This document shows positions 122 to 365 of a DNA stretch of 32,086 bases, piece after piece. Below the pieces are notes generated by a model. That model searched no databases. It saw nothing but the letters and a program-made list of their open reading frames with translations, and was not told the DNA's origin. The translations under genes and the position numbers were made by a program. Source of the DNA: Candidatus Woesearchaeota archaeon (GTDB lineage: Archaea; Nanobdellota; Nanobdellia; Woesearchaeales; SKGA01); the NCBI GenBank assembly GCA_021734105.1, contig JAIPJP010000011.1, forward strand, positions 1-32,086, in the 5' to 3' direction. Positions within the stretch are counted from its first letter, which is position 1. Each line of letters starts with the position of its first letter.

Positions 122-189
122 CCTTTTTGAACAACGCCGGTTTTTGATGCTTAGAATAAGACAAAGTAAAAAGAGTGAGCCTGGGGGGA

Positions 190-238
190 CGTTCACAACA
201 GCTGCCGGCGTACTGCACGCTGGATGACAGTCTGCTGA
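190..238 (-). other. T-loop (59/60) intron of the UAU tRNA, 49 nt
   Basis: A textbook bulge-helix-bulge is visible. The outer helix is the T-stem GGGGG/CCCCC. The central 4-bp helix is TTCA (244-241) with TGAA (195-192). The 3-nt bulges are AAT (240-238) and CGT (191-189), and the inner helix is CAGCAG/CTGTTG. Cutting after the second bulge nucleotide removes 238-190 and gives a 7-nt T-loop. The intron itself folds further (CTGTC/GGCAG, then GCGT/ACGC). Confidence 0.88.
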
Positions 239-260
239 TTTGAACCCCCGACCACCAGCT

Positions 261-300
261 CTCTTGGAGCAAACATCCCTTACTTTGCGAGATGCCGTCA
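261..300 (-). other. Anticodon-loop (37/38) intron of the UAU tRNA, 40 nt
   Basis: It sits between A301 (position 37) and A260 (position 38). The BHB is weaker than the T-loop one. The central helix CTT/AAG has an adjacent A-C mismatch, the bulges are TAT (302-300) and AGA (262-260), and the inner stem ends in CATCTC/GGGATG around a 9-nt loop. Confidence 0.75.
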
Positions 301-365
301 TATAAGACTGGCGCTCAACCAGACTAAGCTACAGGCTCAACTAATAAAAAAAGAGCCGAAGTCCG

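Follow-up and report, generated by a model that had tools for sequence, protein, structure and literature searches.

A tRNA-Ile(UAU) gene interrupted by two introns, one at the canonical site 37/38 and the other in the T-loop between positions 59 and 60, occupies positions 338→176 on the minus strand of the window (the whole 32,086-nt stretch of woesearchaeal DNA that was analyzed). The reading that best accounts for the sequence, to which we assign a probability of about 0.93, is that this is a functional, single-copy gene, probably encoding the only reader of AUA codons in the genome, whose precursor would be spliced twice at bulge-helix-bulge (BHB) motifs by the splicing endonuclease EndA together with RtcB.

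A doubly interrupted tRNA-Ile(UAU) gene

The gene spans 163 nt (176–338, minus strand, as for all features of the window given below) and consists of three exons and two introns. Exon 1 (301–338) supplies the 5' strand of the acceptor, the D-arm, the 5' strand of the anticodon arm, the anticodon TAT and A37, and is followed by a 40-nt intron (261–300) at 37/38 that has similar counterparts in orthologs from the same genus and the same family. Exon 2 (239–260) begins with A38 and continues through the 3' strand of the anticodon arm, the variable loop and the 5' strand of the T-stem to T-loop positions 54–59 (TTCAAA), where the 49-nt second intron (190–238) enters at 59/60; exon 3 (176–189) comprises T60, the 3' strands of T-stem and acceptor, and the discriminator A73 at position 176. 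Read along the minus strand, the 5' part is GAGCCTG-TA-GCTT...GAGC-G-CCAGT-CTTATA up to the first intron, and the 3' part is A-GCTGG-TGGTC-GGGGG-TTCAAA, the second intron, and then T-CCCCC-CAGGCTC-A. The acceptor strands GAGCCTG/CAGGCTC pair at 7/7 positions and the T-stem strands GGGGG/CCCCC at 5/5, or 12/12 together. The initial annotation had placed a tRNA gene with two introns, one of them at 59/60, at 176–338 of a probable DPANN genome, with no isotype given; its coordinates prove exact on the minus strand, A73 included, both introns are borne out, and the genome does belong to a DPANN lineage, the Woesearchaeota order; for the CTP synthase encoded in the window, the nearest relatives among public sequences come from Woesearchaeota MAGs.

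When both introns are deleted in silico a 74-nt cloverleaf results, which ARAGORN identifies as tRNA-Ile(tat) with the T-loop TTCAAAT, and when the T-loop intron alone is deleted ARAGORN reports tRNA-Ile(tat) with a 40-nt intron in the anticodon loop. Neither the full gene nor the version that keeps the T-loop intron yields an ARAGORN call, and any such call thus requires removal of that intron. ARAGORN applied to the window found no tRNA, Rfam applied to the window at E<=1 left the tRNA-Ile(UAU) gene unreported, and in a whole-genome Rfam search the gene scores only 15.4 bits. The neighboring tRNA-Gly(GCC) gene (400–511), which has a 37/38 intron of its own, scores 45.8 bits with Rfam RF00005 and is identified by ARAGORN as Gly(gcc) with a 41-nt intron.

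Splicing motifs and machinery

The centroid RNA fold (z = -3.0) contains a BHB in which the T-stem forms the outer helix, exon bases TTCA (T54–A57, 241–244) pair with intron bases TGAA (192–195) in a 4-bp central helix, and intron strands CAGCAG (237–232) and CTGTTG (196–201) form a 6-bp inner helix, which is absent from the initial annotation. The 3-nt bulges AAT (238–240) and CGT (189–191) lie on opposite strands, and the motif is perfect, as had been claimed. Archaeal EndA cuts each bulge after its second base. Applied to AAT and CGT, this rule predicts cleavage at AA^T and CG^T, which would leave A59 to be ligated to T60 by RtcB, restoring the loop TTCAAAT; the invariant T54-T55-C56-A57 of the exon would thereby serve as one half of the splicing motif and the TGAA at the 3' end of the intron as the other, with the T-stem as outer helix. 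The BHB at 37/38 is relaxed, with a central helix of 3 bp and an A.C mismatch (3/4 pairs); strict homotetrameric EndA enzymes may cut such motifs poorly.

Each of 24 genomes, this one and 23 relatives, has a single PF01974 endonuclease gene. The EndA encoded here is a single-domain protein of 248 aa with a Lys/Ala-rich N-terminal extension, its closest solved structure is the Nanoarchaeum equitans endonuclease (chain 3iey_A, E 2e-34), and inspection of its sequence by eye reveals a Tyr, a His and a Lys that we take to be those expected of the catalytic triad. RtcB, too, is encoded by one gene in the genome, and the predicted splicing would be carried out by this single EndA and RtcB. The single EndA gene suggests a homotetramer (alpha-4), with the proviso that a divergent second (beta) subunit could escape PF01974. 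Non-canonical tRNA introns are linked to two-subunit EndA enzymes; in these genomes they are frequent despite only one recognizable EndA gene per genome.

Orthologs of the gene in the order

Of 240 genomes in the order, 222 were matched by a model covering 40 positions in the 5' portion of the gene; the weak matches include other tRNAs. Loci were taken for the best model matches, and genes were placed by acceptor and T-stem pairing alone, with no intron feature used. All 101 distinct tRNA-Ile(UAU) genes sampled in this way have an intron at 37/38, where the central helix has 4/4 pairs in 73 and 3/4 in 27. A T-loop intron is present in 33 of the 101, a proportion that is approximate because a few loci first entered the sample through the T-loop-intron DNA pattern described below; these introns are 13–106 nt long and all lie at 59/60. 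Two introns in one tRNA of a DPANN genome, regarded as unusual in the initial annotation, are therefore not so within this lineage. In every one of the 33 the acceptor and T-stem pair at 12/12 positions, the last base of the 3' bulge is T and the spliced T-loop is TTCAAAT, the same loop as in 62 of the 68 orthologs that have no T-loop intron. The intron strand of the central helix is exactly TGAA in 25/33, and the helix has 4/4 pairs in 28/33; when 4-mers were drawn at random from these introns (2000 draws), the number of 4/4 helices averaged 1.4 and never exceeded 6, which excludes a chance structure.

The other five orthologous introns have only 3/4 central pairs, and some introns have no clear inner helix, as might be expected if the T-loop intron were real but its cleavage took place elsewhere, or did not involve EndA and a BHB. 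We regard this as very unlikely, because the introns' conserved ending TGAA-NN^T, together with a spliced loop of TTCAAAT in 33/33, is exactly what the EndA rule predicts, and Rfam reports neither a group I nor any other intron model at the locus.

Within the family the T-loop intron is patchy, being present in this genome and in G003 of the same family and absent from two genomes of the same genus (G001 and G002). The introns of this genome and of G003 are weakly similar (shuffle p = 0.008), a similarity for which homology is not claimed. At the short end of the length range, two T-loop introns (L054 in genome G067 and L263 in genome G097) measure only 13 and 14 nt and keep the TTCA/TGAA helix and the 3-nt bulges; judged from their sequences, these are minimal BHB introns.

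Decoding of AUA

Most archaea read AUA with a tRNA-Ile2(CAU) that TiaS has modified. The TiaS domain (PF08489) was found in none of 59 genomes (this one and 58 relatives) and was present in four archaeal controls, and it is for this reason that the Ile(UAU) isotype matters. AUA is in use (80 of 6154 codons in the open reading frames of the window), and the anticodon TAT occurs in an Ile tRNA of a genome in which TiaS was not found. A further intact copy, which the initial annotation names as a refuting case, was not found: a search of the genome assembly with the gene returned only the gene itself and a short match to tRNA-Ile(GAU); the assembly comprises 42 contigs and is 96.9% complete, so a second copy could lie in a gap, and the list of tRNAs for this genome was compiled from Rfam hits only. 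With TiaS not found and no second tRNA-Ile(UAU) gene found, AUA decoding in this genome probably depends on this tRNA alone, and its splicing is therefore probably essential. Known exceptions with tRNA-Ile(UAU) are N. equitans and Korarchaeum, as recorded in the tRNAscan-SE 2.0 survey (PMC8450103).

These observations bear on whether the locus might instead be a decayed tRNA pseudogene whose T-loop was broken by an insertion that is never spliced, a reading in keeping with the fact that the insert hides the gene from ARAGORN and Rfam. However, every stem is intact, the genome search found no other Ile(UAU) gene, AUA is in use although TiaS was not found, and 33 orthologs bear an insert at this very point, with their stems complete and the BHB preserved. 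A pseudogene is thus extremely unlikely, and it was rejected, along with a chance structure, on the strength of stem integrity, the lack of another Ile(UAU) gene in the search, and conservation. The preferred reading remains that of a functional gene that is presumably transcribed and twice spliced.

T-loop introns in other tRNAs

The distribution of T-loop introns was surveyed with the DNA pattern GGTTCRAA-N5-35-TGAAAGTCC, the reversed pattern serving as control. Within the order, 137 of 287 genomes contain the pattern, and its reversed form yields 5 hits. In a phylum-wide draw, counted by hand from the result table, it occurs in 84/166 genomes inside the order versus 8/113 outside, where the reversed control gave 4 hits. 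The true rate is probably higher, because the pattern misses longer introns and also the window's own intron (TGAACG^T). About half of the genomes of this order thus carry at least one T-loop intron in some tRNA, whereas the initial annotation describes such introns as known from some Crenarchaeota and rare elsewhere. After removal of the predicted intron ARAGORN finds a tRNA at 31/32 and 14/20 pattern sites in two sets, the isotypes being Pro, Leu, Ala, Phe, Ser, Val, His, Gln, Glu, Lys, Arg, Tyr and Ile; these calls are approximate where genes carry further introns, and the number of isotypes may also be given as about ten.

The universal T-loop itself supplies the 5' half of the motif, so that any tRNA could in principle host at 59/60 an intron ending in TGAA-NN; this would account for the presence of T-loop introns in many isotypes of the order. 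Introns taken from a single genome are more alike than introns taken from different ones (0 of 1000 shuffles of the labels gave a value as high); with base composition and duplicate loci only partly controlled, this hints at spread within genomes of the kind on record for Thermoproteales (Fujishima 2010, as presented in PMC4090602). That the 59/60 intron is a portable element, which spreads among tRNA genes through pairing of its 3' end TGAAAG with the universal T-loop and is kept in part because it breaks the target, running from T-loop to 3' end, of insertion elements by which tRNA 3' ends are copied in Woesearchaeota, is a speculative extension of the preferred reading that we think improbable as it stands.

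Two further observations concern introns elsewhere in tRNAs. In a probable tRNA-Arg(CCU) of this genome (L025, G000:C2:25975-26035) the D-arm and the anticodon arm are ~50 nt apart, as would be expected for another non-canonical intron, near 25/26. The introns of tRNA-Trp(CCA) (L058) and of one tRNA-Met(CAU) (L059) share GCGATGAGTCA-N-TTGACRATGATTA, an arrangement reminiscent of introns that contain box C/D guide RNAs.

Copies of tRNA 3' ends downstream of tRNA genes

About a third of the tRNA genes in this family, 22 of 64 in four genomes, are followed ~45–130 nt downstream by a 12–18 nt copy of their own 3' end, as compared with 0/64 for reversed tails. The copies usually form the 3' strand of an imperfect hairpin, are sometimes in tandem, and vary between species of one genus; they were seen at L002, L003, L004, L006, L007, L009, L010, L013, L015, L026, L057, L058 and L059 in this genome and at L046, L047, L051, L310 and L318 in relatives. 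One class starts with GGATTTGAAC (the reverse complement of the T-arm) and ends with AATCC and the tail, and a second class is marked by a conserved internal loop, CC.../ACTA. Tandem arrays directly follow the tRNA gene at L051 (a tRNA ending in TCCGGGCCGCGGCG) and also at L059 and L318, an array consisting of three ~53-nt hairpin copies with the tRNA 3' end, separated by unrelated spacers of ~41–43 nt in a CRISPR- or integron-like spacing. The copies were considered as alternative 3' exons and rejected as such, the upstream stretches inspected (Trp, Leu) being without the TGAA-NNT needed for a T-loop BHB. This side observation may outweigh the intron finding itself.

The copies resemble what insertions leave behind, and so touch on the proposal that tRNA introns protect tRNA genes (Randau and Soll, as discussed in PMC3218864). 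Applied here, T-loop introns would be selected because they disrupt the stretch from TTCAAATC to the 3' end that is targeted by integrating elements, an account of their persistence that is compatible with the preferred reading and that we consider unlikely. It draws on the frequency of 3'-end copies after tRNA genes of the family, on their lower frequency at genes with a T-loop intron (2/86 vs 19/180, p = 0.026, an exploratory test that pools unrelated genomes), and on the requirement of the Aciduliprofundum boonei casposase for TCAAATC (PMC6614799). Against it, the Ile set by itself reveals no clear difference (1/32 vs 8/65), and the geometry of casposon insertion, with its published 14-bp duplication (PMC6614799), is unlike that of the copies found here; a casposon origin of the copies is accordingly no more than a possibility.

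Relation to known tRNA introns

The kind of intron described here is known, since 59/60 is already listed among the non-canonical intron sites of other archaea, in a compilation that names Crenarchaeota and Nanoarchaeota as lineages rich in them (PMC4090602). The Thermoproteales (Pyrobaculum, Thermofilum) are similar in having BHB introns, several per tRNA, with 59/60 among the archaeal positions (PMC4090602), and similar introns in different tRNAs of one Thermoproteales genome have been attributed to intron transposition (Fujishima 2010, as presented in PMC4090602). However, they belong to a different phylum, in Woesearchaeota the site that recurs is 59/60 of the T-loop, where the introns share a 3' end, TGAAAG^T, that pairs with the invariant TTCA, and one EndA gene was found per woesearchaeal genome whereas the EndA of Crenarchaeota has two subunits. 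Among DPANN archaea, tRNAs with several introns are recorded in N. equitans and ARMAN (PMC4033280), and N. equitans also has tRNA-Ile(UAU) in place of Ile2(CAU) (PMC8450103); the EndA of N. equitans is two-subunit and that of ARMAN epsilon-2, unlike the one single-domain EndA gene found in Woesearchaeota genomes. The same isotype in the red alga Cyanidioschyzon merolae has three introns, in the D-, anticodon and T-arms (PMC9602550), and thus shares the anticodon- and T-arm introns, although no relationship is implied. In the Asgard Atabeyarchaeia and Freyarchaeia, a different lineage known from metagenome genomes, most tRNA genes bear introns, often at non-canonical sites, and a recurrent T-loop position is not described in the portion of that account at hand (PMC11291895). 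No account of T-loop introns in Woesearchaeota was found in the literature searched, subscription papers and preprints lying outside its scope.

What is noteworthy here is accordingly the lineage-wide distribution of T-loop introns in Woesearchaeota. A probably essential tRNA goes unseen by both ARAGORN and Rfam, and tRNA counts and decoding sets of Woesearchaeota are therefore likely to be underestimated. In this order, moreover, nature has gained and lost an intron many times at a single site of one orthologous gene, making the origin and spread of archaeal tRNA introns directly testable.
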